Positions 94-15,380 of a DNA stretch of 20,036 nt are shown here, one piece after another. The translations under genes and the position numbers were made by a program. Numbering within the stretch: the stretch's first letter is position 1; each line of letters begins with the position of its first letter. This stretch comes from a virus, in IMG/VR virus record IMGVR_UViG_3300027733_001684, positions 1 to 20,036 of that record; one strand, given 5' to 3'. The notes beneath the pieces are model-generated. The model was given only the letters and a program-made list of their open reading frames with translations. It had not been told where the DNA came from and did not search any database.

Positions 94-420
94 TTATTTT
101 ACCACTGTAAACATACCCATTGTCGAATTACCTTGTATTGTTCCGGGTGAAACCGAATATAATTCAAGACCCGATATTCCGTTTTTTAATGATTGTTTAT
201 CATAATTTCCTGGTCCGGTAATTGTACCAACCATATATGATGGTGTGGCTTGAGTTATTTTAATTGTATACATTTGACCATCAACGTCTCTTTTAGCATT
301 TACCACTTGACCTGTGGTAAAGTTTGCTGGTTGATGTGTATTTTGTTCTTTTAATAATGATTTATTTAACCTTTGGTTAGCTTCCATTATATTTTGTAAT
401 TTTGCGATTCTTTTGTTCAT
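94..420 (-). CDS. Unknown 108-residue protein downstream of the major capsid gene
   Basis: No family is recognised. Residues 1-27 are charged and helical with regular leucine/isoleucine spacing. The rest is rich in Gly, Thr, Ser and Val, with short alternating hydrophobic stretches, and looks like a small beta domain. The gene forms a transcription unit of its own: a double copy of the TATTTATA element lies 12 bases upstream of the ATG and a strong terminator directly follows the stop. Independent late-type control immediately after the capsid gene would suit a small abundant virion protein such as a head decoration protein. T4 places gene 24, a vertex protein, here, but this protein is far too short for that. 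The head role is inference from position only. Confidence 0.8.
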   Translation of the reverse strand: MNKRIAKLQNIMEANQRLNKSLLKEQNTHQPANFTTGQVVNAKRDVDGQMYTIKITQATPSYMVGTITGPGNYDKQSLKNGISGLELYSVSPGTIQGNSTMGMFTVVK

Positions 421-432
421 TTTCTAATTGTT

Positions 433-446
433 TATAAATATAAATA
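433..446 (-). promoter_or_regulatory. Candidate late-promoter element, double copy
   Basis: Two overlapping TATTTATA octamers on the minus strand (440-433 and 446-439) lie 12 bases before the ATG at 420 and just past the capsid-gene terminator. They match the recurrent element found before several other minus-strand genes, but lack the preceding G seen elsewhere. Confidence 0.5.
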
Positions 447-460
447 TTTCATTTTAAATA

Positions 461-486
461 AAAAACCCCCGTATTTCTACGAGGGT
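461..486 (-). terminator. Intrinsic terminator of the major capsid gene
   Basis: On the minus strand a nine-pair stem (arms 486-478 and 473-465, one G-T pair) closes on a GAAA tetraloop and is followed by TTTTTT. It lies 24 bases after the stop codon of the capsid gene. The very stable loop suits the end of a highly expressed transcript. Confidence 0.93.
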
Positions 487-509
487 CTTTTGTATTGTGA
501 ATCCTAAGA

Positions 510-2249
510 TTATCTTAATGTATTCATATCAAATGTTGCGATACCTTGTACATCGATGATACCAAAGTAACGGTTGTTCACCATTTTCTTTGCGTAACGA
601 GTCATGATACCTTTGATAGGAGTCATTGTGAAAGGATTGTACATTGTTGGAGTCAATTGTAATGGCACATATGGTGCGTATACATAACCTGCATCCAATA
701 AAGATTTTCCTTTATGACCAATCAAGATTTTGTTAGCTGGGAAGTAAGGATCACGGTATACTTGGTAGCGACCTGCCAAAGAACCGATTTTCTCAATACC
801 CATGTTGTAAGAATCTTGCTCAGGAGCTGCGTTTGATACGTGGAAATATTCCAAATCATCAAATACTGCAGAAACTTCAGAAGAAACTACAATCCAGTTA
901 GCACCACCTCTTAAGGTTGTTTTATGGATTTGAGCTGAAATTTGGTTAACTTTAGTAACTAAAGTTTGGTTCCAGTCTTTTTGTGTGTAACCTTGTAAAG
1001 TTGCACCACCAGTTCCACCGTATTTCCACTCATTGTAATCCCATTTAGATTTCCATGCTGCACCTTTACGTAAATCACGTAAGATTTCACGGTCAACTTC
1101 AGCTGCAATTTGCTCTGATAATAAAGCTGTTAATTCAGCTTCAGCATCAATGTTGTGGAATGCACTAACGTCTTGAGCCAATTCAGGAGACCAGCTAGCT
1201 CTTAATTTTCTTTCAGTTACAGAAACTGTTACTGATTCTAAATCAAAAGAAACCTCACCAATTTGATCTTCAAATTCTAAAGTTGCATAACGACGATAAG
1301 TCGCTGTAAAGTCATCACCTTGTAATGTTGTAACTGTAATTTCCGTATCTGCAAAACCTTCAGTTGAACTGTAAGTTTGTAAATCAACATTTAAGTAGAT
1401 TGTACCAGCTTCATCGCAAATATCATTGAATAAGTTACCGTTTGTACCTGCAGATTTTTGTCCGTAAGATACGATACCTTTACCATATTTTTGAGTTACA
1501 ACGTTGAAAGGTAAGAAAGTTCTACCACTTAACGCATTTGCACGAGGTGCAGTGATTGTTAATGAAGCTAAAAACTCTTCTGTATCCATTTCGTTACCGT
1601 CTGGACCAGCTAATTTACCTTGACCTAATCTAGAGAAACCTGTTAACTTTAAGATAACTGATGAAACATCGGTACCTGTAGCGATAGTTACTGCGTTACT
1701 TTCAACACCATTTGCAAAAGTTACAATAGATGTACCAGTTAAAGAAACATCAGTGAATGAACCTTTTGAATAATCAAAAAGACCTTCACCTACTGCGTCA
1801 CTACCTTCGTAGAAACGATCGTAAAGATTCTTAGCACCTGTGTCATAACCTTGACTTGTTGCACCTGTATTTGGATATCCATAAGGAGAATAGTGATTAT
1901 TACTATTATCTCTTTCTTGGATTTTAGGTACGAAGAAGAACAATTTACCAATTGGTAAGTTCATTGCTTGTACTGATACGATGTCATTCGCTAATAATTT
2001 AGAGAATACACGACGGATGATAGGGAAAACTACAGTTTCAAAAGAACCTGAAGAATCTGCTACTGCCGCTTCGTTAATCAAATATGACGCTTGGTTTTCA
2101 TACAATTGCGCGATATTATCTTTTTGGTGACCTTCTAAGTTTTCTAAGAAACCTAATTCGTCCCATTTTTTAATGGTATCTTCCTTGATAACACGTAAAT
2201 GTTTTAATCCGATGTTACCAACCATACCTGATTCTAATAATGCTCCCAT
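510..2249 (-). CDS. 23: Major capsid protein, T4 gp23 family
   Basis: The 579-residue protein is the main shell subunit of the head. Recognisable T4 gp23 segments include, after the N-terminal propeptide, VVFPIIRRVF with VQAMNLPIGK, then the ELAQDVSAFHNIDAEAEL helix region near the middle, and the YAPYVPL and KGIMTRYAKK regions near the C terminus. Residues 1-60 look like the scaffold-binding propeptide. Residues 58-60 (INE, followed by AAVAD) match the (I/L)xE site cut by the T4 prohead protease, and T4 gp23 is cut at the equivalent place (LTE, after residue 65). This would leave about 519 residues. The region from about 115 to 280 is rich in Thr, Gly and Val and unlike T4, consistent with a divergent surface insertion. 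It lies 25 bases after the scaffold gene, with an A-rich leader and no Shine-Dalgarno sequence, and is probably co-transcribed with it. Confidence 0.97.
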   Translation of the reverse strand: MGALLESGMVGNIGLKHLRVIKEDTIKKWDELGFLENLEGHQKDNIAQLYENQASYLINEAAVADSSGSFETVVFPIIRRVFSKLLANDIVSVQAMNLPIGKLFFFVPKIQERDNSNNHYSPYGYPNTGATSQGYDTGAKNLYDRFYEGSDAVGEGLFDYSKGSFTDVSLTGTSIVTFANGVESNAVTIATGTDVSSVILKLTGFSRLGQGKLAGPDGNEMDTEEFLASLTITAPRANALSGRTFLPFNVVTQKYGKGIVSYGQKSAGTNGNLFNDICDEAGTIYLNVDLQTYSSTEGFADTEITVTTLQGDDFTATYRRYATLEFEDQIGEVSFDLESVTVSVTERKLRASWSPELAQDVSAFHNIDAEAELTALLSEQIAAEVDREILRDLRKGAAWKSKWDYNEWKYGGTGGATLQGYTQKDWNQTLVTKVNQISAQIHKTTLRGGANWIVVSSEVSAVFDDLEYFHVSNAAPEQDSYNMGIEKIGSLAGRYQVYRDPYFPANKILIGHKGKSLLDAGYVYAPYVPLQLTPTMYNPFTMTPIKGIMTRYAKKMVNNRYFGIIDVQGIATFDMNTLR

Positions 2250-2274
2250 TTTTAAAATATTTTGTTTTTTTAGT

Positions 2275-3507
2275 TTATTTTATTTTTGTCATCAAATCTT
2301 TCATTCTTTTGAACTGTGGATTTTCGTAAGCTTTTGACTCAGCTAAAACCTCAGTAGAAGTAGATGTTGATGGCATGTTAGTGATTTTTTCAGCCACTGA
2401 TTCAGTTACAGTTGTTTTAGTACCTAATTCAGTTTTTATTGTGTTGAATAAAGTTTTAGCTTCATTCATAGAGGAAATAGAATCAAATCTCTTTAAAATA
2501 TTCAATTTCTCTTGTTTTGTTGTAGAATGTTCAGTGAATAAACGAGTAGCGTAAGCTAAGTTTGCGTTGAATACAGCAACTTCATTAAGCTTGTCTTTGA
2601 AAAGAATTAAAGCTTTCTTGTATTCAGAATTTTGTTTCTTCAACTTTTCAACTTCTTCGTTCATTTCATGACGACCTGCTTTATATTTTTTACCTTGGTC
2701 AGCTGGCTTTCTAACATCGTTACCCAATGTTCTTGCCGCTTCACCAACTTCAACTTCTTTAGCTTCACCTTCAGAAGCTTCTACTTCCTTAACTTCATCT
2801 TCGTCTTCACCTAACTCAATTTCATATAAAGTTTCATCCATATCTGTTTCGTCAGAAGTTTCGTCAGTTTCAGTATCTAAATCTGCGTCCATTTCAGAAC
2901 CCATATCAGTATCTAAATCTGTGTCCATATCTGCATCAACATCAGGAGTTTCCTCACTATCAAGTTTGATGATATACTCATCTTGACCGTCAGCAAATTC
3001 AACGTTATTACCATCTTTCTTAACTACAATACCATCTTCTGGTTTCATAGCCTTGAAAACTTTAAGAACCTCATCATCTGAAGCTCCTGTCATGTCCATA
3101 ACGTCTTCGTCATCCATACCTTCTTCTGGAGATGGTTCAGTACCTAAATCATCCATAGATGTGTCGGTATCGTCACCAGCTTCAGAATCTAAGTCATCGA
3201 TTCCTTTACTTGGTTCATTATCGAGGTCTGTGTCATCATCTTCAACATCAGTGTCAGCATCTTCACCATCGGTGTCAGCTTCATCATCTGTTGTTACATC
3301 ATCTTCCTCTTCGTCAGGTTTAGTTTCGTCTTCAGGTTGTTCACCCATTGGATCTAACTTCTCCTCTTCTTCTAACGATTCTTTAAGCAAGTCGCTTAGT
3401 TCTTGTTTCATTGTTGAAGCAAGTATACCTTTTGCATTTTGCTTAACAGCTTCTTCAAGGTTTTGCACTTGAAGTAACGCTTGTTCTAAAATAGATTTTT
3501 CGCTCAT
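2275..3507 (-). CDS. 22: Prohead core scaffold protein, T4 gp22-like
   Basis: The 410-residue, strongly acidic protein sits between protease and capsid genes exactly where T4 carries gene 22. Residues 1-48 form a helical N terminus. Residues 49-260 are dominated by Asp, Glu, Thr and Ser, interrupted at about 143-186 by a compact, Lys- and Val-containing stretch that may fold by itself. Residues from about 270 to 350 form a charged coiled coil, the part most like known T4-type core proteins. The family forms the internal scaffold and is destroyed by the prohead protease; (I/L)xE-type sites such as ILE at residues 6-8 fit this. T4 gp22 is shorter (about 270 residues), and the excess here is the acidic repeat region. 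A GTATTTATA element lies 26 bases upstream. Assignment rests on position, composition and coiled coil, less on direct similarity. Confidence 0.85.
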   Translation of the reverse strand: MSEKSILEQALLQVQNLEEAVKQNAKGILASTMKQELSDLLKESLEEEEKLDPMGEQPEDETKPDEEEDDVTTDDEADTDGEDADTDVEDDDTDLDNEPSKGIDDLDSEAGDDTDTSMDDLGTEPSPEEGMDDEDVMDMTGASDDEVLKVFKAMKPEDGIVVKKDGNNVEFADGQDEYIIKLDSEETPDVDADMDTDLDTDMGSEMDADLDTETDETSDETDMDETLYEIELGEDEDEVKEVEASEGEAKEVEVGEAARTLGNDVRKPADQGKKYKAGRHEMNEEVEKLKKQNSEYKKALILFKDKLNEVAVFNANLAYATRLFTEHSTTKQEKLNILKRFDSISSMNEAKTLFNTIKTELGTKTTVTESVAEKITNMPSTSTSTEVLAESKAYENPQFKRMKDLMTKIK

Positions 3508-3533
3508 TTGTAAAATTTGTTGTTTTATTACCT

Positions 3534-3542
3534 TATAAATAC
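3534..3542 (-). promoter_or_regulatory. Candidate late promoter GTATTTATA before the scaffold gene
   Basis: The minus strand reads GTATTTATAAGG, ending 26 bases before the scaffold ATG. It is an exact copy of the element seen before the protease, portal, terminase and 324-residue genes. No -33 TTG-type box is apparent upstream. The gap 3508-3595 holds otherwise only a weak five-pair hairpin with a T run (3559-3573 region) that may slow transcription from the protease gene. Confidence 0.6.
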
Positions 3543-3595
3543 TTGGAAATTTGGAAAAATTGACTATTTCAATATTCCCACCCCTAATAAATTAA

Positions 3596-4279
3596 TTATT
3601 TAGATAGAAATGTATCTAATCTACCCATTAGTTTTTTCATTCTGTCTTCAACTACGGGTTTTTCAATTGTAGATTCTTGATATTGGTCTCTTTCAGATGG
3701 GTCACTAAAAACATATGCACCAGGTGTAGATGGAGATGAAACTAAATCAAAACAAACTAATTCAAAGTCGTCTTGTACAATGTTCTCACCTTTAACTTGT
3801 TTAAGTGAACCTACTCCACGTGAAGAGATACCCAAAGTTGCTCCGTTCATTAATAACATAGCCGCTTGGTCTCCTTTGGTAGAAACAATACCCATCTTCT
3901 TCCAACCTGGCGAAGTGAATAGTTTTATCTTACCCATAAGGATTTTACCATCCCACCATGTTTCTAGAATTGAATGTGAAATTCTATCTAAATCGATAAG
4001 TGAAGATGTTGGGTGATTTAATTCATTTAAAGCTCCACCCTTCTTAATAATTGTTTGGTATTTTTCGTTTTCTCTCTTAAGTAACATCTCAGGATAAATC
4101 CTTCCGTTCTTATTCGGAGTGTCGTATTTTTGTAAAACAGCATAAAGAATCATGTCCTGTGAAAAGTCCATGTTCTTCATTTCTGAAATTATTTTTTTAT
4201 TCTCTTCTGGAGATACGTGACCAGCATCATACTCAATTAATAATCCTCTGCCGGTTTCTTTTGGTCCTAATACCTTCAT
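3596..4279 (-). CDS. 21: Prohead maturation protease, T4 gp21 family (peptidase S77)
   Basis: The 227-residue protein matches the T4 gp21 serine protease that cleaves scaffold, capsid and internal proteins during head maturation. Family marks visible are the early YAVLQKYDTPNKNGRIYP region, the His of ELNHP (H89), the Asp in TWWDGK (D110) and the Ser-rich LGISSRGVGS segment (S152/S153), where the nucleophile is expected. The length is close to T4 gp21 (about 212). It precedes the scaffold gene as in T4. A GTATTTATA element lies 16 bases before its ATG. The final 30 residues are charged and may be a self-cleaved tail, which is inference. Function is secure; the exact catalytic serine is not. 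Confidence 0.95.
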   Translation of the reverse strand: MKVLGPKETGRGLLIEYDAGHVSPEENKKIISEMKNMDFSQDMILYAVLQKYDTPNKNGRIYPEMLLKRENEKYQTIIKKGGALNELNHPTSSLIDLDRISHSILETWWDGKILMGKIKLFTSPGWKKMGIVSTKGDQAAMLLMNGATLGISSRGVGSLKQVKGENIVQDDFELVCFDLVSSPSTPGAYVFSDPSERDQYQESTIEKPVVEDRMKKLMGRLDTFLSK

Positions 4280-4295
4280 TTATAGTTTTTATTAC

Positions 4296-4304
4296 TATAA
4301 ATAC
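4296..4304 (-). promoter_or_regulatory. Candidate late promoter GTATTTATA before the protease gene
   Basis: An exact minus-strand GTATTTATA, ending 16 bases before the protease ATG, in the 38-base gap after the 141-residue gene. Confidence 0.6.
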
Positions 4305-4317
4305 ATCAATATCTAAC

Positions 4318-4743
4318 TTATTTCTTTGTTTTGTAAAAATTGAATAGTTTTTTATCAGATAACCCTTCATCTATGATATGTTCGAATAAATCATTAATGA
4401 TTATTTTAACATCTTTTGATTTAATGTCGAATTGATTGTTAACATATAATGTTACCTCCAAATTCATAAAGGACCTCTTTTCTAACTTAATCCCTTTAGT
4501 TCTAACATCTAAATCTACAATAGATTGGTCTTTAAAATACGGACTTTTTAAGTTGTAAATTATTTCTTTAATCTTTCTTCTTGATTTTCCAATCAAATGG
4601 TTGAAGTCGTCCGTTTCGTTTTCGGGTTGTAACCACGAATTTAATTTAAGATATATGGTTTTCAGATTTTTAAAATCTACGGTACCATAACCGATTTTTA
4701 CTTCATTGTACGTTCCCAATGGAATATACTTACCAATTTTCAT
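4318..4743 (-). CDS. Unknown 141-residue protein between portal and protease genes
   Basis: No domain is recognised. The sequence is basic and alternates short beta-like and helical stretches. It shows no signal peptide, membrane segment or metal-binding motif. With the 245-residue gene it fills the slot between genes 20 and 21 that T4 uses for the small prohead core proteins gp67 and gp68, so a minor core or head-shape role is plausible but unproven. Its upstream region (4744-4848) is shared with the divergent bS21 gene. A TATTTTTG box on the minus strand (4816-4809) fits the -7 half of a host promoter, but no -33 partner is visible, and an imperfect TATTTATT lies at 4792-4785. How the gene is transcribed is therefore unclear. 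Confidence 0.8.
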   Translation of the reverse strand: MKIGKYIPLGTYNEVKIGYGTVDFKNLKTIYLKLNSWLQPENETDDFNHLIGKSRRKIKEIIYNLKSPYFKDQSIVDLDVRTKGIKLEKRSFMNLEVTLYVNNQFDIKSKDVKIIINDLFEHIIDEGLSDKKLFNFYKTKK

Positions 4744-4797
4744 TATAATTTCATATTATTTTTATTTTATGGTGTTTTATAAAAAATAAATAAAATA

Positions 4798-4830
4798 TTT
4801 GATTATTCCAAAAATACTTTCATATATTTG
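4798..4830 (+). promoter_or_regulatory. Host-type promoter of the bS21 gene
   Basis: TTTG (4798-4801), a 21-base spacer and TATATTTG (4823-4830) fit the Bacteroidota consensus exactly. The expected start would leave a leader of roughly ten to fifteen bases, all A and T, with no Shine-Dalgarno sequence. A TATTTATA octamer at 4840-4847 overlaps this leader one base before the ATG, too close to act as a promoter for the gene. Confidence 0.75.
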
Positions 4831-4848
4831 TAATATATTTATTTATAT

Positions 4849-5040
4849 ATGATTATAATTGATTTACAAAAAGAGAAAAGTATTGAGACTGCGTTAAGAA
4901 CTTATAAACAAAAAGTTCAGAAAACAAAACAAGTTCAAAAATTAAGGGAGAGACAACAGTTTGTTAAACCTTCTGTTAAGAAAAGAACTGAAAAATTGAA
5001 AGCGGTATATCTACAACAAAAAAGAAATGGACTTAGTTAA
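4849..5040 (+). CDS. rpsU: Ribosomal protein bS21, phage-encoded, Bacteroidota type
   Basis: This 63-residue basic protein matches bS21 of the small ribosomal subunit over its whole length: an N-terminal strand, then SIETALRTYKQKV, the KLRERQQFVKPS block, and a C-terminal helix with KAVYLQQ. The LRxRQxFxKPS and KAxYxQ patterns are those of Bacteroidota bS21. In Flavobacterium johnsoniae bS21, with bS18 and bS6, hides the anti-Shine-Dalgarno end of 16S rRNA, and a C-terminal tyrosine takes part; this protein has a tyrosine at position 54. Host bS21 genes in that group usually carry a strong Shine-Dalgarno sequence thought to serve autoregulation; none is present here. It is the only plus-strand gene among the head genes, has its own host-type promoter, and overlaps the convergent gene by eight bases. 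Replacement of host bS21 to alter translation is inference. Confidence 0.93.
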   Translation: MIIIDLQKEKSIETALRTYKQKVQKTKQVQKLRERQQFVKPSVKKRTEKLKAVYLQQKRNGLS

Positions 5041-5051
5041 GTCCATTTTTT
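5025..5051. terminator. Bidirectional terminator shared by two convergent, overlapping genes
   Basis: A ten-pair stem (5025-5034 with 5039-5048, loop AGTT) is followed by a T run on the plus strand (to 5051) and by a T-rich run on the minus strand. The stop codons of both genes, TAA at 5038-5040 on plus and TAA at 5035-5033 on minus, lie inside the hairpin. Confidence 0.88.
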
Positions 5052-5770
5052 AATTCTGTTAATCTGTAATAATTTAATTTGGATGGGAACATTTCGTTAA
5101 CCTCATCTTTCACTTTCTTTAATTTAGTTGATAAATCAGTTTCATTTGATTCACTTATAAGTGTAGATACTTGATTGATAATAGATTCCTTTAATTCAGT
5201 TGTTTTAGTTAATACATCTTCATGAGATAAAGAAAGGATGTTCTTTAACTCTTCTTTTTGTTGTTCCGATAATGTATTAGAATAAAGAACATTAAAGTTA
5301 TTTGTTAAAACGGCATTTAATAAATTTTCATTTGGTATTAATGTTGAATCTTTAGATTCTTTAATTTCCTTTTTAGTTGTTAAATGTTCTACTAATTTCT
5401 TCTTTGCAATTACTTTCTTTTCAATATTAGATAATTTATCGTTTTCTATTAATACGTCTAAAGAACTATAAATTTCATTTTCATTAATTGTCTCTACATT
5501 AATCATTTTATTTAATGATGTACAAAATGTTGTTAAATCTTCCATTTGTTGTTTTAAGATTCCAATAACCCCCTCGACATATAATTTTGCAGTTTCTTTA
5601 TCTTCAATATATTTGTTTTCAATTTCTTCATAGAACAAATACATTTCTTTAAAATCTTTGTTTTCTTTAATTGTAGTTAGTATATCCTTTATCTCGGCTT
5701 TATTTTCATTAGCGTAAGACTCAGTTAATTTAGTTAATAATTTACTTTTTATTGTTCCGAATTTGTTCAT
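5033..5770 (-). CDS. Unknown helical protein after the portal gene, possible prohead core protein
   Basis: The 245-residue protein is rich in Lys, Glu, Leu, Asn and Ile and appears almost wholly helical, with coiled-coil-like heptads. No enzymatic motif is seen. It begins two bases after the portal stop, so it is almost certainly translated from the portal transcript. The position between genes 20 and 21 corresponds to the T4 core genes 67 and 68. Its first 17 residues (basic, ending LTE) resemble the short capsid-targeting leaders of T4 internal proteins, which the prohead protease removes after (I/L)xE. A prohead core or internal head role is inferred from these two points. It could equally be an unrelated structural protein. 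Confidence 0.82.
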   Translation of the reverse strand: MNKFGTIKSKLLTKLTESYANENKAEIKDILTTIKENKDFKEMYLFYEEIENKYIEDKETAKLYVEGVIGILKQQMEDLTTFCTSLNKMINVETINENEIYSSLDVLIENDKLSNIEKKVIAKKKLVEHLTTKKEIKESKDSTLIPNENLLNAVLTNNFNVLYSNTLSEQQKEELKNILSLSHEDVLTKTTELKESIINQVSTLISESNETDLSTKLKKVKDEVNEMFPSKLNYYRLTELKNGLN

Positions 5771-5772
5771 TT

Positions 5773-7596
5773 TTAGTCATTTAAAATATCCTTCAATTTA
5801 TTCTCTATCTCATAAATATTCTGTTGTGCGCGTTTCATATCAAATAGTGAGCTAAAATCTTCTTTCTCTTCACCTAACATACCTAATATTTTAGATTTCT
5901 TTGATTTAGATTCACTTAACGGTGGTTCTCCTCCACCTGCTGCTGGTGGTTCAGGTGCTCCACCGCCACCCATATCCATACCACCTCCTTCAGGATTTTC
6001 ACCACCCAATGCACCGGCAGCTTCAAGTTTTTCTCTCTCTTCTTCAGGGATTCCGTATTTGGAATCAACCTCATCGAACACACCTGATCGTTTAATAATA
6101 TTCTGTGTATTAGTTAATTCAAAACCTATAGCTCTTTCTAAACGTTGTTGTTGTAAATCAAGTACGACTTCACTGTCACTAAACCCTAAAATATTCTTCT
6201 TTGCCCATGTATGCGACACCGGCAAGATACCAACTTGTGACTGGTCGGAAGTCGCATCTTTGTAAAGTGTTACCTTTTCCTTCCACTGCTCAAGCCTTAA
6301 CAAATCAGATTGTGCTGATGGGTTAGTTAATGATAAAGTAAAATTATTCAATTCATCTTCCATACCTAAAAGATATAAATGAATTAATGCAACTTTATTT
6401 AACTCTTGTATTAATGATTTTTGTATTTTATTAATTGTTCTTGCAAAACGGATATCCATTAATGCAAGATTCTTTCCGTCACCAACTACTTCTTCAAATC
6501 CTAAAAATGCTTTAGGAATACGAAGTGCTGCTAACATTTTCTTTTGAATATATTCAATGTCAGCAATTTCACCTAAGTTTTGTGCACCAGGTAAAGTTTC
6601 AATTGGCATTGTTTGAGATGCATCACGAACAGGAACAAAATAATCTTGGTCAACTGCCATTTGATTATATCTCATATCCACCTGACCATTACGTGGGTCG
6701 GCTATTGGACTACGTTTAAATTTATTTGCAACTTTTTGTACGTAAGATTCAATATCTTTATCGTCCATATTACCAACAAATATTTTAAACACACGTCTTT
6801 CGGGTGCTCTTGATGTTCTATAGATTAACATTGCATCTTCAGCAAGTAAAAGTTGTTTCCAAATTCTTCTAATTTTATCTAACATAGAAGTTCCATAAGG
6901 AAGTTTTCTATCATCACCTAATAATCTAAAGTGAGCGACTTCCCATGCTTGAAATTCCAAATCTTTATTCTTCCATTGAAATCTTAATTCACGTGTTGGA
7001 ACTTTAATATCATGAGGTCCTGCGGTTTTTGTTCCAGCACCTTCGATTCTTTCAATTTCAATATTTGGTAATTGTTGAACTCCAACAATACCTTTTTCAG
7101 GGTCAATCTTTAAATAAACAAAATCATCACCGTACTTAGACATACCACGAGCCCACATTTGTAGGTTAGTATTGATATCCATTTTTGTGTGGAATAAATC
7201 TTGAAGTATTGATTTAATTCTATCTGATTCAGAATATATTGTAAGGATTTCACCCTTCTCTGACATTGTAGTTGATTCTTCAGCGTATATATCTAACGCT
7301 GCTGAAACTTCAGGAGTAAACTCCATAGATTCATAGTCGTAGTATGCTGCCATTCTATTCGGTTCATAATAAACCGATTGATTATAAAGAGATTGATCTA
7401 ATTTTGTCCACTTGTCAGCAATGTATTGACTCTGTTGAGCCTGTAACATTGCCTTTTCATAATCTTCTTTACTATCCGTTTTTAATAATTCATCTTTGTT
7501 GAAATTAAATGATGGTGCCTGATCAGCTTTAATTTGACCCGGAAAACCAAACATTCTTGTTAGTTTCTGAAAGACGGTAGGATTTTGATTTGCCAT
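5773..7596 (-). CDS. 20: Portal vertex protein, T4 gp20 family
   Basis: The 607-residue protein forms the dodecameric ring through which DNA is packaged and ejected and which nucleates head assembly. T4 gp20 family segments are clear: RMAAYYDYESMEFTPEVSAA near residue 85, the ALDIYAEES region, the SKYGDDFVYLKID strand, GTSMLDKIRRIWKQLLLAEDAML and the RAPERRVFKI region in the clip/stem part, then LAALRIPKAFLGFEE. It is longer than T4 gp20 (524). The excess is mostly a C-terminal tail with a glycine/proline-rich linker near residues 530-560 and a final helical segment. The ATG lies only four bases after a GTATTTATA element, so a leaderless or nearly leaderless message is possible. Terminase is directly upstream, without the tail genes 18 and 19 that T4 places between. 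Confidence 0.97.
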   Translation of the reverse strand: MANQNPTVFQKLTRMFGFPGQIKADQAPSFNFNKDELLKTDSKEDYEKAMLQAQQSQYIADKWTKLDQSLYNQSVYYEPNRMAAYYDYESMEFTPEVSAALDIYAEESTTMSEKGEILTIYSESDRIKSILQDLFHTKMDINTNLQMWARGMSKYGDDFVYLKIDPEKGIVGVQQLPNIEIERIEGAGTKTAGPHDIKVPTRELRFQWKNKDLEFQAWEVAHFRLLGDDRKLPYGTSMLDKIRRIWKQLLLAEDAMLIYRTSRAPERRVFKIFVGNMDDKDIESYVQKVANKFKRSPIADPRNGQVDMRYNQMAVDQDYFVPVRDASQTMPIETLPGAQNLGEIADIEYIQKKMLAALRIPKAFLGFEEVVGDGKNLALMDIRFARTINKIQKSLIQELNKVALIHLYLLGMEDELNNFTLSLTNPSAQSDLLRLEQWKEKVTLYKDATSDQSQVGILPVSHTWAKKNILGFSDSEVVLDLQQQRLERAIGFELTNTQNIIKRSGVFDEVDSKYGIPEEEREKLEAAGALGGENPEGGGMDMGGGGAPEPPAAGGGEPPLSESKSKKSKILGMLGEEKEDFSSLFDMKRAQQNIYEIENKLKDILND

Positions 7597-7600
7597 TCTA

Positions 7601-7609
7601 TATAAATAC
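7601..7609 (-). promoter_or_regulatory. Candidate late promoter GTATTTATA before the portal gene
   Basis: An exact minus-strand GTATTTATA ends four bases before the portal ATG. If it works like the T4 late element, whose start lies about five or six bases downstream, transcription would begin at or next to the start codon. The gap 7610-7650 also contains a direct repeat, CCAAATA twice, of unknown meaning. Confidence 0.6.
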
Positions 7610-7650
7610 TTTTCTTTATAATATAAACTAAATATTTGGTATTTGGAATA

Positions 7651-9426
7651 TTATTTAGATTTCCCAAATAACCACATATGTTCTTTATATGCGTCTTTAG
7701 GTACGTTTGTTGGGTTGTCTTTGTGATAAATGTCGTTAGTGTCCATACCCATAGCCCCTATTTGGTCAAAAGATGAACCATAAGAATAATGAGTTTTGGC
7801 CGGTTCGTAAGTTCTTTCAGACATAACCCATGAATCTATCATTGCTTTATTTTTGGAATCATTTTTTTGTAATTGATTGAATGAAATATCACCAGCATAT
7901 AATGCCATAGACATACTCATAATTGAGTCATCGTGCATTCCTTTCATATGGTCAGGTCTTCCATTCAGATAAACAAACGTATTGAGTTCATTTAATAATC
8001 TACTAGACCTTACTAAAAATCCTTTTCTAAGTTGTTCTTCAAAGGCCGCCACGATTTGGGTTCTTTTATTGTTAAAACTAATTCCTGGTATTTTATCTAA
8101 AGCCTTTTTATTGTATTCCCAAATGTTCTGTGTGTTAATACCATCAATGAATAAACTTTTATAATTCATTTCTTGTAACTTTCTAGATGTTGCAACTCCC
8201 ATACCACCTGTGATATCAATTACAATGAAAGCGTCATATAAAATACCCCATTTGTATGCTATATTCGCCAAATCATCTGGAGGTATTTTACCAATATATT
8301 CAACAACTTGTTCTCTATCGTCAAAATCAATAATATTAATTGATGAAAAGTCCTCACTATCCCCTCTACTAACATCCACACCCATAATATAACGATGACC
8401 TTCAATTGGTTCTTTCCATTGCCAGAAAGTACCTTGCATGTATTTTTCTTTAGGAATACGAATCATATTTTTTGCTATGTTCTCTTGAATATCAGTAGGT
8501 ATAACCCCATCACCTGAACCTAAGAAATCACATTCCAACTCCTGAGCAATTTTACGTCTATCGTATTTGAATTTTTTAGACATTGATTCAAACCAAGATG
8601 AAAATGGTTTATAACCATCCTCAATTAGTTTATTGTACTCTTTCATATCAAAATCATGTAGAACAACTTCATCATCATTATATTGTTCTCTATTCAACAT
8701 GTAGTGACAGATGTCTTGACATTTAACCCAACGTAAATCTTTGGTGTAACGAGGGTCTTTAAACCATCTTAAATCAGTTATATGGAAATCATTGATTCCA
8801 CGTAATGCTTGGTCGTAAACACCGTAATAGATAGCATCATAACCATTTGGTGTGGAGATAAGAATAATCTTACCACCCGTTGATAGGGATGCCATAGATG
8901 CCGCCCAAAAATCATCACCCGCTTCAATATATGCAGCCTCATCAAATACAAGTATGGTAGGTGTATAACCACGAAGGGCATCCGCCGATGTTGCAACCGC
9001 CTTAACCTCACAACCATTATTTAATCTAAATCTACTTTCTGAGTTTTTATCAGGTGAGAACCCAACATTAATCCAATCAGGCCATTGTTCTATGAAATGT
9101 CTAACCTTATTAGCCATCTCCACCGCGGTATCACGTTTGTTCGCGATAAGTAGAACCCTTTCAGGATTATCAGGTTTTGCTAATTGTAATTTTTTTGATA
9201 ACCATGCTGCAGTTACAGTTGTAACTCCAGCTTGTCTATACTTTCTTGTAATGTTTTCGTTGTAATTTTCGTAATCGTTAATTAATTGAATTTGGTCCTC
9301 AAACAAATCCATCGGGACATACTTCTTCTGTGTATTGTCAAACGTTTGAAGGTATGTTCTAAGGGCGTATGGGGTATCTTTAATAATCTTAGCATACTCC
9401 ATTAATTGTTCTGCTCTGGTATTCAT
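7651..9426 (-). CDS. 17: Terminase large subunit, T4 gp17 family
   Basis: The 591-residue protein is the packaging motor ATPase and nuclease. The N-terminal ATPase has an adenine-motif-like FEDQIQL (42-48), a Walker A equivalent at 63-70, Walker B ILVFDEA (catalytic E163) and the coupling motif ISTPNG (190-195). The C-terminal RNase H-type nuclease shows D351 (MGVDVSRGD), D404 (IVIDITGG) and D500 (HDDSI), equivalent to the T4 acidic triad. The Walker A segment reads YRQAGVTT where T4 has SRQLGKTT: the usual lysine is valine, as in terminases with a deviant motif in which an upstream basic residue (here R64 or K62) takes over. The length is close to T4 gp17 (610). The gene has its own GTATTTATA five bases before the ATG, directly after a terminator. 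Confidence 0.97.
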   Translation of the reverse strand: MNTRAEQLMEYAKIIKDTPYALRTYLQTFDNTQKKYVPMDLFEDQIQLINDYENYNENITRKYRQAGVTTVTAAWLSKKLQLAKPDNPERVLLIANKRDTAVEMANKVRHFIEQWPDWINVGFSPDKNSESRFRLNNGCEVKAVATSADALRGYTPTILVFDEAAYIEAGDDFWAASMASLSTGGKIILISTPNGYDAIYYGVYDQALRGINDFHITDLRWFKDPRYTKDLRWVKCQDICHYMLNREQYNDDEVVLHDFDMKEYNKLIEDGYKPFSSWFESMSKKFKYDRRKIAQELECDFLGSGDGVIPTDIQENIAKNMIRIPKEKYMQGTFWQWKEPIEGHRYIMGVDVSRGDSEDFSSINIIDFDDREQVVEYIGKIPPDDLANIAYKWGILYDAFIVIDITGGMGVATSRKLQEMNYKSLFIDGINTQNIWEYNKKALDKIPGISFNNKRTQIVAAFEEQLRKGFLVRSSRLLNELNTFVYLNGRPDHMKGMHDDSIMSMSMALYAGDISFNQLQKNDSKNKAMIDSWVMSERTYEPAKTHYSYGSSFDQIGAMGMDTNDIYHKDNPTNVPKDAYKEHMWLFGKSK

Positions 9427-9431
9427 ATATG

Positions 9432-9440
9432 TATAAATAC
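9432..9440 (-). promoter_or_regulatory. Candidate late promoter GTATTTATA before the terminase gene
   Basis: An exact minus-strand GTATTTATA abuts the T run of the preceding terminator and ends five bases before the ATG. The terminase unit therefore appears to be insulated from upstream transcription and started afresh. Confidence 0.65.
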
Positions 9441-9470
9441 AAAAAAAGGTGGTTATTGTAAACCACCTTT
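9441..9470 (-). terminator. Intrinsic terminator of the four-gene unit 13422-9474
   Basis: On the minus strand, AAAGGTGGTT (9470-9461) pairs with AACCACCTTT (9454-9445) over ten pairs with a six-base loop, and TTTTTTT follows. It begins three bases after the stop codon of the 465-residue gene. Confidence 0.93.
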
Positions 9471-9473
9471 GTA

Positions 9474-10871
9474 TTATTTCGTAGGTCTATCTAAACCTAA
9501 CTCTTTAAAGAGGTCATCATCGTCATCCTCTTCGTCATTATCATTAGATAAACTAATACCAGGTATTCCTGATATAAAATCTTTTAATTCATTGTTATCT
9601 GTTTCATCGGAAACATTATTTAAATCCTCATCAAATTCCGCCATTGTCTGTTCGTAATCGTAATTGTTAATGTCTTCTTCAATTGCTCTTACTAAAGTTT
9701 CCATTAAACGATTTCCACTTTCAGAGTTAGAAACAACTTCCTTCATAAACACTAAAAACTCTTTTGCTGGTTTTTTGAAAATATGTTGGAAAACCATTAA
9801 TTGAATAATTGATTTTGTTTCGTCAGTTAATACATCTTCAGGAAATTTAGACCTAATTCTATCCCAAATTACAGGTCCTAAACGTAAATCCCACATTTCT
9901 TTTTCTAATGTATCTTCACTATCTTCAATTGCTGTAAAATCTTCTTCATTACCTTCTTCATCTCTTTTTCTACCGTGTAATGCAACCAACTCTAATGTTC
10001 CTTTAATTAATTCATGTATTAAAACTGGAAAGTTTACCGCTCTTGCTTTAACCGTTGGTGGGTCTGTTTGTCTATCAACATCTTCTCTACCTGCAATCGC
10101 ACCCGCCTGTCCCATTGATTTCATAGTTTCATCAGGTAATTGCCAATATAATGCGTCATTTACTGACATCATAATACCGTACAATCCAATGATTCTATCA
10201 TTACCCACAATTTCTCTAACTCTATCTTCAACATAATGATACATATAGTGACCTCTTTTAGATGCCCCCTGTATAATTGTATTAATAAATCTTCTTTTTG
10301 CTTTCTCTAAATTAAGATTTTCTAAATCATTAACGATTTCAATTTCATTACCAAAATTCATTTCCTCTTCACCACCCTCTTCGTCACCACCTTGTTCTTC
10401 CTCATCATGACCAAAATCTTCAGGGTTAAATTCACCCATACCAATAATTCTTGCATCATATTGAACTGAACCTTCTGGAATACCTAATTCTTTTTTAACT
10501 AAATCTACCGCTAACGCTTCCAATTCTCTTCTATGATTTTGTTCAAACGATAAAATTTGATTATGAGCACTCATCATTTGTTGCATCAATGGGCTCATAC
10601 CTTGCATACCACTTATAGTTGAATTGGTACCCGTATATTGTCTCATTTTCTCAACAACTTGTTTATATCTTTCTGAAGCTAAAAGTTCTTGGAAGTTCTT
10701 ATTAGGTTCATTTCCCGTCTGTGGTAATGGTATTTTTTTCAACGGAGTTTCTCCCGATGATAATTTATCTTGTACCCCTTGGTCAGGTCTATCTTGTGAA
10801 TCAAAGTCCATCGGCATTTCGTTCAAATTTTCTTTGATTAAAGATAAGAGTTTTTTCTTAGATATTCTCAT
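9474..10871 (-). CDS. Unknown 465-residue protein, probable virion or head-assembly protein
   Basis: No family is recognised with confidence. The N terminus is basic (residues 1-14, ending LIKE). Residues 90-140 are Met/Gln-rich and helical, 155-175 form an acidic Glu/Gly-rich linker, and 180-400 look like a folded, mostly helical domain with several Trp/Tyr motifs such as GHYMYHYVEDRV. The last 60 residues are very acidic, including a run of aspartates. The leader resembles capsid-targeting peptides of T4 internal proteins, removed after (I/L)xE, and a similar leader starts the neighbouring 391-residue protein. It is the last gene of a four-gene unit and begins two bases after the previous stop, which implies translational coupling. 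Being next to terminase and portal suggests a structural role; this is inference. Confidence 0.85.
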   Translation of the reverse strand: MRISKKKLLSLIKENLNEMPMDFDSQDRPDQGVQDKLSSGETPLKKIPLPQTGNEPNKNFQELLASERYKQVVEKMRQYTGTNSTISGMQGMSPLMQQMMSAHNQILSFEQNHRRELEALAVDLVKKELGIPEGSVQYDARIIGMGEFNPEDFGHDEEEQGGDEEGGEEEMNFGNEIEIVNDLENLNLEKAKRRFINTIIQGASKRGHYMYHYVEDRVREIVGNDRIIGLYGIMMSVNDALYWQLPDETMKSMGQAGAIAGREDVDRQTDPPTVKARAVNFPVLIHELIKGTLELVALHGRKRDEEGNEEDFTAIEDSEDTLEKEMWDLRLGPVIWDRIRSKFPEDVLTDETKSIIQLMVFQHIFKKPAKEFLVFMKEVVSNSESGNRLMETLVRAIEEDINNYDYEQTMAEFDEDLNNVSDETDNNELKDFISGIPGISLSNDNDEEDDDDDLFKELGLDRPTK

Positions 10872-10873
10872 TA

Positions 10874-12049
10874 TTAGTTAACTTTTTTTTCTTCCGCCAT
10901 TTTAGCCTTTGGTTTTGGGTTTGGTCCCGGGCCAGGTTGTTTAAAAGGAGTTTTTCTTGGGTCTTCTCTTCTTGTCGGTGTAGGTCTTGTACCTGGTTTT
11001 GTTTGTGGTGCAGGTTTACTTGGTGCTGTTTTTGGTTCAGCATCTACAATTGCATCATATGACATAAACTCAGGAATACCGTTGTGTCCCTTTTTAACTT
11101 TAGGTCCGTGTTGAACCATTGTATTTGACTCGGTAAGTTTAGTTTGGATAAGTTCCATAATTTCGCTTTTAGACGTAAAACTATGAAATTCTTTATTCTC
11201 TACCAAACCTTTAACCCAATTTTTTACTTCTTTAATATCTTCTTTTTTACACTTACATTTAGATTCCACCTTTCCACAATCATCACATTTTTTAATATTT
11301 TTAAGTTGTGGAAAATCTTCTTTAGATTTCTCTAACGCCTTTTCACTTCTTTCATTGTGATAATCACCTTCTTCCACATCTTCTTCTTTTTTCTTTTTAT
11401 GACCGTTAAAATTTGGACTAGGTCGTTTTTCTGGTTTATAAGGATTTTTTTTCATTCTTTCTTTTGATTCGTTGTCTTTTTTCCAACTATTGACAAAATC
11501 TTCATGTGCTTTATCGATTTCGTGGTCCTCAGGTTCTCTACCTAAATCTTTACTTAATTTATCTTTAATTACACCAAGCATAAGACCATTTAATGATTCA
11601 TCCACTTCTCCCTCTTCAGTTTCACCTTCTTCTTTTTTCTTTGGTGTAGATTTCTTTTTAGGAGAACTTGATTTTTTAGGTGTTCCTCCAAATAGAGAGG
11701 TACTACTTGATTTTGAACCTTTTACGGTTAAACCCATATCAGCCTCATTTACATCTTCTTTAGCTTCACCTTTCTTTTCTTTGTTTAAAATTGCAAAGTC
11801 CTCAGCATCAATTTCACCGTTATGGTTTTTATCAATGTTCTTTTGTTTACCCTTTAATTCCTCTTCAACCTCAACCTCAGTATTTGGGTCATTTGCCAAA
11901 TCTTTTAATTTTTGATCTGTTTTTAATTTGTCAGCATCAATAACAATTCTTTCATGTAAATCTGAAAGTTGTTTATCACTAAATCTAACCAATGTTTTTT
12001 CAGAAAATCCTTCTTTGATTAACTGACTAACTATAACGTCTCTTTTCAT
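10874..12049 (-). CDS. Unknown 391-residue protein with an EF-hand-like loop and a Cys cluster
   Basis: The N-terminal 13 residues end in LIKE, as in the next gene. Residues 73-84 (DKNHNGEIDAED) match a calcium-binding EF-hand loop with acidic or amide residues at positions 1, 3, 5, 9 and 12, in a single copy. Residues 255-267 hold CxxC-x6-CxC, which could bind zinc. In between and at the C terminus (from about 325) the protein is low-complexity, rich in Lys, Ser, Pro and Glu, and probably disordered. Single EF-hand-like loops occur in structural proteins of T4-type marine phages. The ATG overlaps the preceding stop (ATGA), so translation is coupled. A metal-stabilised virion or internal protein is the likeliest reading; the function is unknown. 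Confidence 0.83.
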   Translation of the reverse strand: MKRDVIVSQLIKEGFSEKTLVRFSDKQLSDLHERIVIDADKLKTDQKLKDLANDPNTEVEVEEELKGKQKNIDKNHNGEIDAEDFAILNKEKKGEAKEDVNEADMGLTVKGSKSSSTSLFGGTPKKSSSPKKKSTPKKKEEGETEEGEVDESLNGLMLGVIKDKLSKDLGREPEDHEIDKAHEDFVNSWKKDNESKERMKKNPYKPEKRPSPNFNGHKKKKEEDVEEGDYHNERSEKALEKSKEDFPQLKNIKKCDDCGKVESKCKCKKEDIKEVKNWVKGLVENKEFHSFTSKSEIMELIQTKLTESNTMVQHGPKVKKGHNGIPEFMSYDAIVDAEPKTAPSKPAPQTKPGTRPTPTRREDPRKTPFKQPGPGPNPKPKAKMAEEKKVN

Positions 12050-12447
12050 AATTCTTTGATTTTAATTTCTTCGTTTAATAAACTATAATTCCTATTTTTT
12101 AATTTTTTTGTGACAGATTCAATTGGTTCCCCGAATTTAAATGTTAATCTTTCAAATTCGTTATCAAAATCGAACTTTTCCCATGCCAATGATATTACAC
12201 CATCTACGGCATCAATAACTCCGAAAAAATCGGAGTTTTGTATAAGTTCTAATTGTAAATCTGTATCTTTTAATAATCCAACTACATCAACATATTCGAC
12301 GTCAGGTGATTTAGACCTTGAGACAGACGATGCAGGTATTGCAAACCAATCTCCCATGTCAATTTCGGTACTTTCACTAAATACGAATTCGTACTGTTTT
12401 TGACCTTTGTAATCCGAACCGATTTCATTGACATATATAAGATGCAT
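12046..12447 (-). CDS. Unknown 133-residue protein
   Basis: No domain is recognised. The sequence alternates beta-like and acidic stretches with several aromatic residues (YEFVFSES, DMGDWFAIPAS, LAWEKFDFD) and a Lys-rich end. It lacks a signal peptide or membrane segment. It starts directly at the stop of the 324-residue gene with no spacing and overlaps the next gene by four bases (ATGA), so it belongs to the same tightly coupled unit. Small beta-rich proteins of this type in T4-like phages are often virion components, but nothing in the sequence proves it. Confidence 0.8.
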   Translation of the reverse strand: MHLIYVNEIGSDYKGQKQYEFVFSESTEIDMGDWFAIPASSVSRSKSPDVEYVDVVGLLKDTDLQLELIQNSDFFGVIDAVDGVISLAWEKFDFDNEFERLTFKFGEPIESVTKKLKNRNYSLLNEEIKIKEL

Positions 12448-13422
12448 TTATTTAAAGTATTTGTGTAAAGTTTGACTAATACTACTATTGATTTCATTCT
12501 TGATTTCATCTAAATCAAGTTCTTGAATATTATCTTCGTTATATTCGTCACCTGTTTCTTTAATTGAGTATTTTGATAAATCAATTTCATCTGTGTCCAT
12601 TGGGGTTTCAACAAATTCTTCTAATGAACCCATAGCATCGTATTCACCCATTTCAGCTTCAGGTTCTACTGCTGGTTCCTCAGAAGGAACTTCCGCACTT
12701 GGTTCTTCTGAACCCATTCCACCTTCTTCTTCCTCTCTTTCAAATTTCTTAGCAACATCTTCAATATCTTCATCAGATAATTTATCCAAATCAACCGCCG
12801 AAATAATCATATTTAAAATATATTTGATATCGTCACTTTCCATTCTATCATGTAAATCTCTTAATTCTTGACCTAATTTACCCGCATATTTTTGAGCTTC
12901 AGCCATATAACTTGAACGTTTTCCCATATCTTCTCCACCATCTGTTGGAGGTGTTTCTGAAGGTACAGAACCGCCATCTGTTGGTGCAGCATCGGGTGCT
13001 GGTTGAGTTGACATATCGTCCACAGGTGCCTCAGGAGCATCCATAGATGGTTCTGGCATTGGCATTTCTTCTTGTGGTTTGTTTTGTTTTAAAACATACT
13101 TTGTTGCTTCTTGTAATTCGTCTTGACCTTTTAACAATTCAAGTCTCTTAAAAGCATCACCATAAGATGAAAATTTGTTTTTGTTTTTCATAAACATTCC
13201 ACCGATATAATCAAGCGATTGCTCATTTAAACCTCTTTTAACATAGTATGCGTCTTTCTCTCTCACAATACCATATACACCACCTGTTTTTGATTCCTGA
13301 ACTAATTCAGCCTTCATAGATGATGATTTCTTATTATTGTTGTAGTATGTTAACTCAAGAATCCTTTTTAATTTCTCATCTGAGTTAAGTTTTTCACTAC
13401 CAAGTGGTTTTATTTCTGCCAT
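12448..13422 (-). CDS. Unknown 324-residue acidic protein, first gene of the four-gene unit
   Basis: No family is recognised. Residues 1-115 look folded (helical with YYVKRGLNEQSLDYIGGMF). Residues 118-168 are a Pro/Ala/Asp/Gly-rich linker with near repeats such as PTDGG twice. Residues 170-230 are helical and charged, and the remainder is highly acidic, rich in Glu, Met and Ser, ending in a short helix (ISQTLHKYFK). The architecture, a small domain plus long acidic linkers, resembles the scaffold protein nearby and suggests an assembly or internal head role. That is inference from composition. The gene is preceded at 33 bases by an exact GTATTTATA element. Confidence 0.83.
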   Translation of the reverse strand: MAEIKPLGSEKLNSDEKLKRILELTYYNNNKKSSSMKAELVQESKTGGVYGIVREKDAYYVKRGLNEQSLDYIGGMFMKNKNKFSSYGDAFKRLELLKGQDELQEATKYVLKQNKPQEEMPMPEPSMDAPEAPVDDMSTQPAPDAAPTDGGSVPSETPPTDGGEDMGKRSSYMAEAQKYAGKLGQELRDLHDRMESDDIKYILNMIISAVDLDKLSDEDIEDVAKKFEREEEEGGMGSEEPSAEVPSEEPAVEPEAEMGEYDAMGSLEEFVETPMDTDEIDLSKYSIKETGDEYNEDNIQELDLDEIKNEINSSISQTLHKYFK

Positions 13423-13492: not shown

Positions 13493-14251
13493 TTATTGTT
13501 CTACAGACAATTTTTTATCTGTTAGTGTTATTTTAAGTTTTAATAATTTCCCAATGTATCCGTTTCGTCTTAATAATTTGAATGTTAGATTCTCGTAAGA
13601 GTACTCCCCACCTGAATCTAATCCACTTTGTCTAAACGATTTAATCTTAGCTCTGATGTTCTCAATATCATTTAATACGTCCACACCCTTATTCCCCTTT
13701 TCAACGATTTTATCTATTTTCTTTATATACTCCTCTCCCTTTTGAAGAATCATTCTATCATCAATATTAGGGTTCTTTTGTTCAGGTTCAATAATCCATT
13801 TGTTATGTAAGATAGAATAAACGCCAGATGAAACGTGTTCTTCATTGACGTCTTGTACGTATAATTCAACGTCATATCCTTTAATTACGATATCATGTTT
13901 TTCATTCCAAATATTCTTTTTAGCATCAAAAAACTCTTTAAGAATTTCAGAATTGTATTTAGATTCTTTATAATCAATTACAATATGTAGGTCAACATCG
14001 GAAAAATTTGACCAATTGTAATTAGCCAATGAACCAGTTAAAACAATATCGTGTATGAAAAATTCAACTCCAAGGGATTCAATAAAGTCATCCGAAATTT
14101 TTAATAATGCGATTTTAATATCATCACGCATCAAAAATTTACCTTTATCCCCCTCAAAAATTTGATTAGATAAGGTATCTTTAGATTTAAAAGATTTGAT
14201 AATTTTCTTATCACCTTTTTTATCTTCAATTAATTCTTCAAATAAACTCAT
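13493..14251 (-). CDS. Nucleotidyltransferase-fold protein (Pol beta superfamily)
   Basis: The 252-residue protein carries the minimal nucleotidyltransferase signature: G73-S74, ten residues, then D85-x-D87 (LTGSLANYNWSNFSDVDLH), with a third acidic candidate at D127 (YDVELYVQD). These residues bind two metals and a nucleotide triphosphate. The C-terminal half (about 150-240) is helical and basic. Members of this superfamily add nucleotides to RNA, small molecules or proteins; the substrate cannot be read from the sequence. The N terminus (residues 1-9, ending LIE) resembles the packaging leaders of T4 internal proteins such as Alt, so delivery with the DNA is possible but speculative. The gene overlaps the upstream KTSC gene by four bases (ATGA), showing coupling. 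Confidence 0.88.
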   Translation of the reverse strand: MSLFEELIEDKKGDKKIIKSFKSKDTLSNQIFEGDKGKFLMRDDIKIALLKISDDFIESLGVEFFIHDIVLTGSLANYNWSNFSDVDLHIVIDYKESKYNSEILKEFFDAKKNIWNEKHDIVIKGYDVELYVQDVNEEHVSSGVYSILHNKWIIEPEQKNPNIDDRMILQKGEEYIKKIDKIVEKGNKGVDVLNDIENIRAKIKSFRQSGLDSGGEYSYENLTFKLLRRNGYIGKLLKLKITLTDKKLSVEQ

Positions 14252-14493
14252 CCTTGTTTTGTATACTTATGACTTTTGGCGATATTCTCGTTGAAGTATT
14301 TTCCGTGGGATTCGGCTAACCTAAATTTGGTGAACTTCTGCCAAGGAACTTTATTGTATACATAAATACTTCCGTTGTTAAAAACGACGGTTAAGTCCTC
14401 TGTTTCTGTATTGTATGTTGATTCTTTAAGGTTGGAAGATTGGATAGTAACTGTAATAAGTTTACCCTCAATTTTTTCTGATATGATACCCAT
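14248..14493 (-). CDS. KTSC-domain protein, copy 1
   Basis: The 81-residue protein fits the KTSC domain along most of its length: SSNLKESTYNTETEDLTVVF, NGSIYVYNKVP, and a C-terminal AESHGKYFNENI block. The family is a small beta-rich domain common in phages and bacteria, sometimes fused to other domains. Its molecular role is not established, although association with RNA-related proteins has been suggested. It is a paralog of the gene at 14567-14818, separated by a terminator, and its stop overlaps the start of the nucleotidyltransferase. The arrangement suggests that the KTSC protein and the nucleotidyltransferase are made together. Confidence 0.88.
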   Translation of the reverse strand: MGIISEKIEGKLITVTIQSSNLKESTYNTETEDLTVVFNNGSIYVYNKVPWQKFTKFRLAESHGKYFNENIAKSHKYTKQG

Positions 14494-14566: not shown

Positions 14567-14818
14567 TTAGATACTTTTTACTTTTTTATAAGTAAAGTTG
14601 TTTGAAATGTTCTGATTAAAGAACTTTCCTTGTGACTTAGCCAATCTAAACTTAGTAAATGTTGTTGATGGTACATTTTGGTACTCATAGGCAACTCCAC
14701 TGTTGAACAAAACTCGTAAGTTTTCTTTTAAAGTGTCGTAAGACGCAGATTTAAGACTAGTTGATTTAATTGAGGCATAAATCATTTTTCCGTTGATTTT
14801 TTCTTTTTTTACTGACAT
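14567..14818 (-). CDS. KTSC-domain protein, copy 2
   Basis: The 83-residue protein shares with copy 1 the same layout and many residues: KSTSLKSASYDT, LRVLFNSGVAYEYQNVP, TKFRLAKSQGKFFNQNI. The TKFRLA-S-GK-FN-NI block is almost identical, so the two arose by duplication. The KTSC family has no settled function. The gene stands between the Hsp20 gene and a strong terminator. No clear promoter of either type is visible in the 51 bases upstream, so read-through from the Hsp20 gene is the simplest explanation. Confidence 0.88.
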   Translation of the reverse strand: MSVKKEKINGKMIYASIKSTSLKSASYDTLKENLRVLFNSGVAYEYQNVPSTTFTKFRLAKSQGKFFNQNISNNFTYKKVKSI

Positions 14819-15226: not shown

Positions 15227-15279
15227 AGTTATATGTTTTTTTATTTTAATAACAAATACTTTACCAACATATATTTTTG

Positions 15280-15290
15280 GACAACTTGTC
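15280..15290. promoter_or_regulatory. Palindrome GACAACTTGTC, candidate operator 1
   Basis: A perfect five-base inverted repeat with a single central base. Its centre (15285) is 31 bp from the centre of operator 2, about three helical turns, placing both on the same DNA face. On the Hsp20 side it overlaps the only TTG box that could serve as -33 element, a position suited to repression. Confidence 0.5.
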
Positions 15291-15310
15291 ATTATATTTA
15301 AAAACTTTTT

Positions 15311-15321: not shown

Positions 15322-15326
15322 TCACG

Positions 15327-15358: not shown

Positions 15359-15380
15359 TATTGAATTAAACTTATATCAT

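Follow-up and report, generated by a model that had tools for sequence, protein, structure and literature searches.

bS21 turns up in phages more often than any other ribosomal protein. The question raised by the locus studied here, a bS21 gene lying among the head genes of a virus record, is how the phage's copy might prevail over the host's own; "the window" denotes the whole 20,036-nt stretch of that record that was analyzed. In Flavobacterium johnsoniae, the host gene rpsU carries an extended Shine-Dalgarno sequence (SD) and is autoregulated via ribosomes without bS21 (PMC9976891, 2023). In this species, rpsU translation goes up when Tyr54 is replaced (Y54A) or the C-terminal region of bS21 is lost, and phage bS21 has been discussed in light of this autoregulation, with a host 'counter-defence' proposed (PMC9976891). 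Replacement of host bS21 by the phage protein late in infection was proposed by Chen et al. 2022 (PMC9723584) and is discussed in PMC9976891. We combined analyses of the bS21 protein, its leader and the flanking signals across related loci to examine whether the phage gene could stand outside the host loop.

The bS21 protein and its genomic setting

The left two thirds of the 20-kb window are taken up by a T4-like, minus-strand head cluster (Table 1). Its genes span 94 to 13422 and are all on the minus strand except bS21, which confirms the statement of an earlier note, made from the DNA letters, that bS21 is the sole plus-strand gene among the head genes. The probable scaffold ORF had a weak match in the locus of Microcystis phage Mel-JY01. 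The 245-aa convergent ORF matched no significant Pfam or PHROG family. The 141-aa divergent ORF, with 80% mean column identity across the clade, had no confident family; its predicted fold is alpha/beta and fairly confident (pLDDT 83) without a solved relative, as the predicted-structure search returned no PDB fold match below E 0.001 and its sole good match was an uncharacterised myophage protein (BFVD). Neither flanking ORF had a convincing homologue in Flavobacterium phage immuto or Mel-JY01.

Table 1. Features of the bS21 locus and neighbouring head genes (positions are those of the window)
Feature	Position	Strand	Basis
gp23-like major capsid protein	510..2249	-	Profile match; without its own TATTTATA
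Probable scaffold	2275..3507	-	Position between protease and major capsid gene; TATTTATA at 3541-3534
gp21-like prohead protease	3596..4279	-	Profile match; TATTTATA at 4303-4296
Divergent ORF, 141 aa	4318..4743	-	Strongly conserved in clade
TTATGGTG, conserved 8-mer between divergent genes	4767..4774	.	Upstream-region alignment
TTTG, possible -33 box, not conserved	4798..4801	+	Perfect spacing in the window alone
CCAAAAA box, conserved upstream element	4808..4814	+	Alignment of 42 distinct upstream regions
TATATTTG, sigma-A type -7 box (TAHHTTTG)	4823..4830	+	Consensus of PMC6847099; conserved in relatives
Predicted leader, 14 nt, A/T only, no SD	4835..4848	+	F. johnsoniae TSS rule; SD energy -0.6 kcal/mol
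TATTTATA 8-mer overlapping bS21 leader	4840..4847	+	Exact in only 10/40 relatives
bS21 (ribosomal protein S21), 63 aa	4849..5040	+	PF01165, E 1e-11
Palindromic bidirectional intrinsic terminator (predicted)	5022..5051	.	Scan, folding, covariation
Convergent ORF, 245 aa, ends NGLN*	5033..5770	-	ORF list
gp20-like portal protein	5773..7596	-	Profile match; TATTTATA at 7608-7601
Large terminase (TerL)	7651..9426	-	Profile matches; TATTTATA at 9439-9432

Further genes of note lie to the right of the cluster. A ClpC/ClpA-type ATPase of 682 aa (15345-17393, plus strand) has a VGF loop resembling ClpP-contacting ones; in PMC9976891 it is speculated that bS21 phages could carry a protease directed at host bS21. 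An Hsp20-like gene occupies 14870-15325 (minus strand), and such genes are reported as frequent neighbours of phage bS21 (PMC9723584). Two small proteins encoded side by side, 81 and 83 aa long (14248-14493 and 14567-14818, minus strand), resemble each other and are apparently tandem paralogues.

The identity of the protein is clear. Against PF01165 it scores 44.8 bits, above the curated cut-off of 27, and it matches phrog_21469 'ribosomal protein S21'. Among solved structures it lies closest to F. johnsoniae bS21 (7jil_z, E 8.8e-11), with a gap-free alignment over residues 1-62. This ungapped alignment and the presence of Tyr54, the residue for stacking on A1534, bear out the earlier assignment to the Bacteroidota type, as do the sequence features named with it: KPS is kept at residues 40-42, KAVYLQ fits KAxYxQ and residue 54 is Tyr. 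As relatives we used 80 IMG/VR loci, each encoding a 63-aa protein, with protein counts taken over 40 distinct sequences. Tyr54 occurs in all 40, and a dN/dS of ~0.12 among the relatives indicates that phage bS21 is under strong purifying selection.

Fixed or nearly fixed differences between phage and host proteins fall at positions 5, 9, 10, 17, 18, 23, 24, 27, and 30. From host to phage, the changes include P5 to D, G9 to E, E10 to K, R18 to T, F23 to V, G27 to K, and R/K30 to Q. Judged by these positions, phage bS21 is consistently different from the host protein in its first (N-terminal, mRNA-side) half. Tyr54 and the C-terminal helix, predicted to occlude the anti-SD, are both retained.

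A leader without a Shine-Dalgarno sequence

As a measure of SD strength we used the energy with which the 25 nt ahead of the start codon pair with the 16S tail ACACCUCCUUUCU, which we take to be the Flavobacterium 16S end. The earlier note had described a phage bS21 gene with no SD and an A/T-only leader. Both points hold: pairing between the tail and these 25 nt of the window's bS21 gene amounts to only -0.6 kcal/mol, and the 14 nt predicted from 4835 onwards are exclusively A/T and fold weakly. No strong SD was found in any of the 81 loci (32 distinct leaders, median -0.6, best -7.1 kcal/mol), so that neither the window nor the clade reaches the extended SD of autoregulated rpsU (below -13 kcal/mol). 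The strong host SD to which the phage gene had been contrasted is characteristic of Flavobacterium, where rpsU ranged from -19.9 to -21.9 kcal/mol in all 24 records so titled. It does not extend to Bacteroidota at large: among 80 rpsU genes of the phylum, 45% reached -13 kcal/mol or lower, many Prolixibacteraceae and certain other lineages had energies close to zero, and genes without an SD included several from Prolixibacteraceae, Chryseobacterium, and Cryomorphaceae.

A lack of SD is common to most genes around phage bS21. None of the 13 ORFs of at least 150 aa in the window reaches -7 kcal/mol, and only 2 of 205 distinct leaders in the relatives reach -10 kcal/mol; by these energies, the SD-less leader is the default for genes of this phage. 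An absent SD before bS21 requires no special purpose, because SD-less leaders are the default. The gene may have been acquired without the host leader and put behind another promoter, lacking an SD since no gene of the phage has one, with a regulatory effect possible and no purpose behind it. This account, which also finds support in the Bacteroidota host rpsU genes that likewise lack an SD, falls in our judgement a little short of even odds. What speaks against it is that retention is possible. Among Bacteroidota-type phage bS21 outside the clade, 62 of 65 distinct proteins are encoded without a strong SD, and the three remaining lineages retain one (-9.6 to -12.1 kcal/mol). The clearest exception is the bS21 at 6001 of LR756501.1, a 735-kb phage, with the strong SD AAAGGAGGATAA (-12.1 kcal/mol); no ORF of at least 150 aa in the same 12-kb stretch reaches -10 kcal/mol.

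Whatever its origin, the leader is SD-less and conserved, and therefore should not respond to bS21-free ribosomes. Its missing SD, though a default, would still remove the phage gene from feedback of the Flavobacterium type.

The specialised ribosome of Chen et al. 2022 offers another view: late replacement of host bS21, with a changed N-terminal helix that selects phage mRNAs. The concentration of phage-host differences in the first half of the protein, with Tyr54 and KPS kept, suits this view, as does late co-expression, since phage bS21 was highly transcribed together with late genes in metatranscriptomes (PMC9723584). The absence of an SD, however, is no mark of phage mRNAs when host mRNAs are SD-less too, no further leader trait specific to phage mRNAs emerged from the analysis, and the promoter class of bS21 is unlike that of the late genes (see below). 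We regard such selection as possible and lean, not strongly, against it.

Promoter class and terminator

The sigma-A consensus of F. johnsoniae comprises TTTG and TAHHTTTG, the -7 box having T at -12 and G at -5, and its -33 element is weak in F. johnsoniae too (PMC6847099). The earlier note had proposed a host-type promoter for bS21. In the window, a perfect TTTG-N21-TATATTTG stands at 4798-4801/4823-4830, and the F. johnsoniae spacing rule applied to 4823-4830 places +1 at 4835. When the last 45 nt were scanned, TAHHTTTG preceded bS21 in 34/40 distinct relatives, 16–19 nt from the ATG, where chance would give about 4% per 45 nt; it was found in none of 198 distinct regions upstream of TerL, portal, protease, scaffold, capsid, and the 245-aa ORF. 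The upstream half of the proposal fared less well: the TTTG at 4798 is not conserved, with TTG at 17–23 nt in only 11 of the 34 relatives that have the -7 box. As a match to the F. johnsoniae consensus, the conserved sequence points to a promoter of the sigma-A class.

The other head genes carry a different element. TATTTATA lies upstream of TerL in 26/26, portal in 38/39, protease in 37/37, and scaffold in 27/27 distinct regions (128/129 in total), at a gene-specific distance to the start. In a relative of 335 kb, GTATTTATA has 27 genome-wide sites vs 9 control hits; of the sites that could be read, nearly all immediately precede an ORF and point the same way as it. TATTTATA/GTATTTATA is probably a phage-wide late promoter, and by these motifs the promoter class of bS21 is different from that of the late head genes.

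Could bS21 nevertheless be an ordinary late gene, with the TATTTATA-like element before its ATG as the real promoter and TATATTTG incidental? The window has the exact 8-mer at 4840-4847, TAYTTATW stands directly before the bS21 ATG in 31/40 relatives, and expression is late in PMC9723584. But exact TATTTATA is kept in 10/40 relatives at bS21 vs 128/129 at TerL, portal, protease, and scaffold, and TAHHTTTG is kept in 34/40 at a nearly constant distance. We consider this reading unlikely.

Other candidate signals were evaluated around the gene. On the plus strand, the CCAAAAA box reads CAAAAATA, which is TATTTTTG on the minus strand, where TAHHTTTG is kept in 23/41. The box may also serve the divergent ORF (4318-4743) as a minus-strand -7 box; CCAAAAATA purely as that gene's -7 box was rejected, as TA is kept in only those 23/41. 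CCAAAAA combined with TAHHTTTG as a phage-wide promoter class was also rejected (15 sites vs 16 control hits in the 335-kb relative, no enrichment), and sigma-70 promoters (TTGACA/TATAAT) showed no excess over shuffles in the window. Genome-wide, TAHHTTTG near ATGs was mildly above control (120 vs 98). The 335-kb relative also contains recurring TAYCTTTGTGTCCTAAA-like elements before ATGs (e.g. 30886, 33575, 39183, 59648, and 60755). These join a sigma-A-type -7 box to a common downstream stretch, some precede small secreted-looking proteins, and they possibly form an early or accessory phage promoter class.

At its 3' end, bS21 meets the convergent 245-aa gene in a palindrome (5022..5051) that covers the last codons and the stop of both genes. 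U-tracts occur on both strands, and folding energies of -13.9 and -10.8 kcal/mol on the two strands correspond to z values of -5.5 and -4.5. Among 46 distinct sequences, the Gly codon GGA/GGT in the palindrome is always matched by TCC/ACC in the opposite arm (A-T in 29, T-A in 16, one shifted variant, no breaks), and these changes are synonymous in both convergent genes. This covariation supports a bidirectional intrinsic terminator at this site. The same simple scan found no terminator overlapping the stop in 80 host rpsU genes.

The terminator also bears on the protein. bS21 and the 245-aa protein both end in NGL(S/N/D) because the palindrome spans both gene ends. In codons 59–64 of bS21, synonymous variation is nearly absent except at the palindrome Gly, and Leu62 is CTT in 52/53 distinct sequences, while CTT accounts for 16% of Leu codons in the head genes. 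C-terminal conservation in phage bS21 was read by Chen et al. 2022 as possible ribosome adaptation (PMC9723584). Where this clade's last four residues are concerned, selection acting on the predicted terminator would suffice as an explanation, and the conserved C-terminus of phage bS21 may partly reflect DNA or RNA structure, not ribosome adaptation. Chen et al. 2022 also raised the idea that virions contain bS21 and bring it into the cell at infection, which would account for its place among the head genes. We consider this very improbable: the gene's own transcription unit and its different promoter speak against bS21 simply being co-expressed with the structural genes.

A proposed escape from host feedback and its relation to known systems

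The best explanation, to which we assign a probability of about 0.5, is that the phage encodes a functional Bacteroidota-type bS21 that is made outside host feedback and replaces host bS21. Under this explanation, bS21 would be a separately transcribed single-gene unit within the late head cluster, bounded by its own sigma-A-type promoter and a bidirectional terminator. Its very short SD-less leader would be translated by ordinary bS21-replete ribosomes, and the phage gene would escape feedback because these ribosomes can translate its mRNA. Flavobacterium rpsU, by contrast, is made mainly by bS21-free ribosomes via its extended SD. Accumulating phage bS21 would fill bS21-free 30S subunits so that the anti-SD stays hidden, which would also hold down translation of host rpsU; with host rpsU kept repressed, replacement of host bS21 would therefore be one-way. 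The escape applies only if the host rpsU has an SD, which some Bacteroidota rpsU genes lack. We infer the timing of phage bS21 and that it enters ribosomes, displaces the host protein, represses host rpsU, and benefits the phage; the ribosome saturation, enforced anti-SD concealment, and deliberate replacement suggested in the earlier note stand on the same footing. The earlier note also suggested that the protein could be made constantly; published transcripts put its expression beside that of late genes (PMC9723584).

A feedback-regulated host gene facing an SD-less, separately promoted phage gene would provide a concrete mechanism for the phage copy winning, and the model predicts repression of host rpsU by phage bS21. 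We further hypothesize, tentatively and as a rather unlikely extension, that the phage exploits the host loop itself: an SD-independent bS21 that occludes the anti-SD, expressed from a host-type promoter and not from TATTTATA, would shut off host bS21 synthesis and neutralize the 'counter-defence'. If true, the ribosome pool would be converted one-way.

Much of this locus has precedents. Chen et al. 2022 described jumbo phages of freshwater Bacteroidetes with bS21 (clades a–e), in which the protein retains an aromatic residue, Tyr54 in most cases, and groups apart from host bS21 (PMC9723584). As in those phages, bS21 here runs in the opposite direction to TerL, portal, prohead protease, and capsid, lies between two hypothetical genes, keeps Tyr54 and is distinct from the host protein; the relatives reach 335 kb, and no difference in kind was found. 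According to a report cited in PMC9723584, bS21 of phage HTVC008M enters E. coli ribosomes. Judged by the portal, the closest relative in the phage collection is Mel-JY01, which likewise carries an S21 gene (rpsU) near the prohead protease, but on the same strand as the head genes and downstream of the protease, whereas bS21 in the window is on the opposite strand. The bS21 of LR756501 is likewise of Bacteroidota type with Tyr54; unlike the window clade it retains an SD, and its 3' end has no such convergent palindrome. Compared with F. johnsoniae rpsU, the phage gene encodes a homologous protein with the same Tyr54 for anti-SD occlusion, yet the host gene has an extended SD and the phage gene none, with a predicted leader of ~14 nt. 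The protein and its head-gene placement were thus already known (Chen et al. 2022), and the core of the finding is not new. The main text of PMC9723584 makes no mention of a promoter or terminator and does not treat the SD contrast. New here are the clade-wide lack of an SD vs Flavobacterium, the predicted split in promoter class, and a covarying putative terminator that encodes the C-terminus of the protein.
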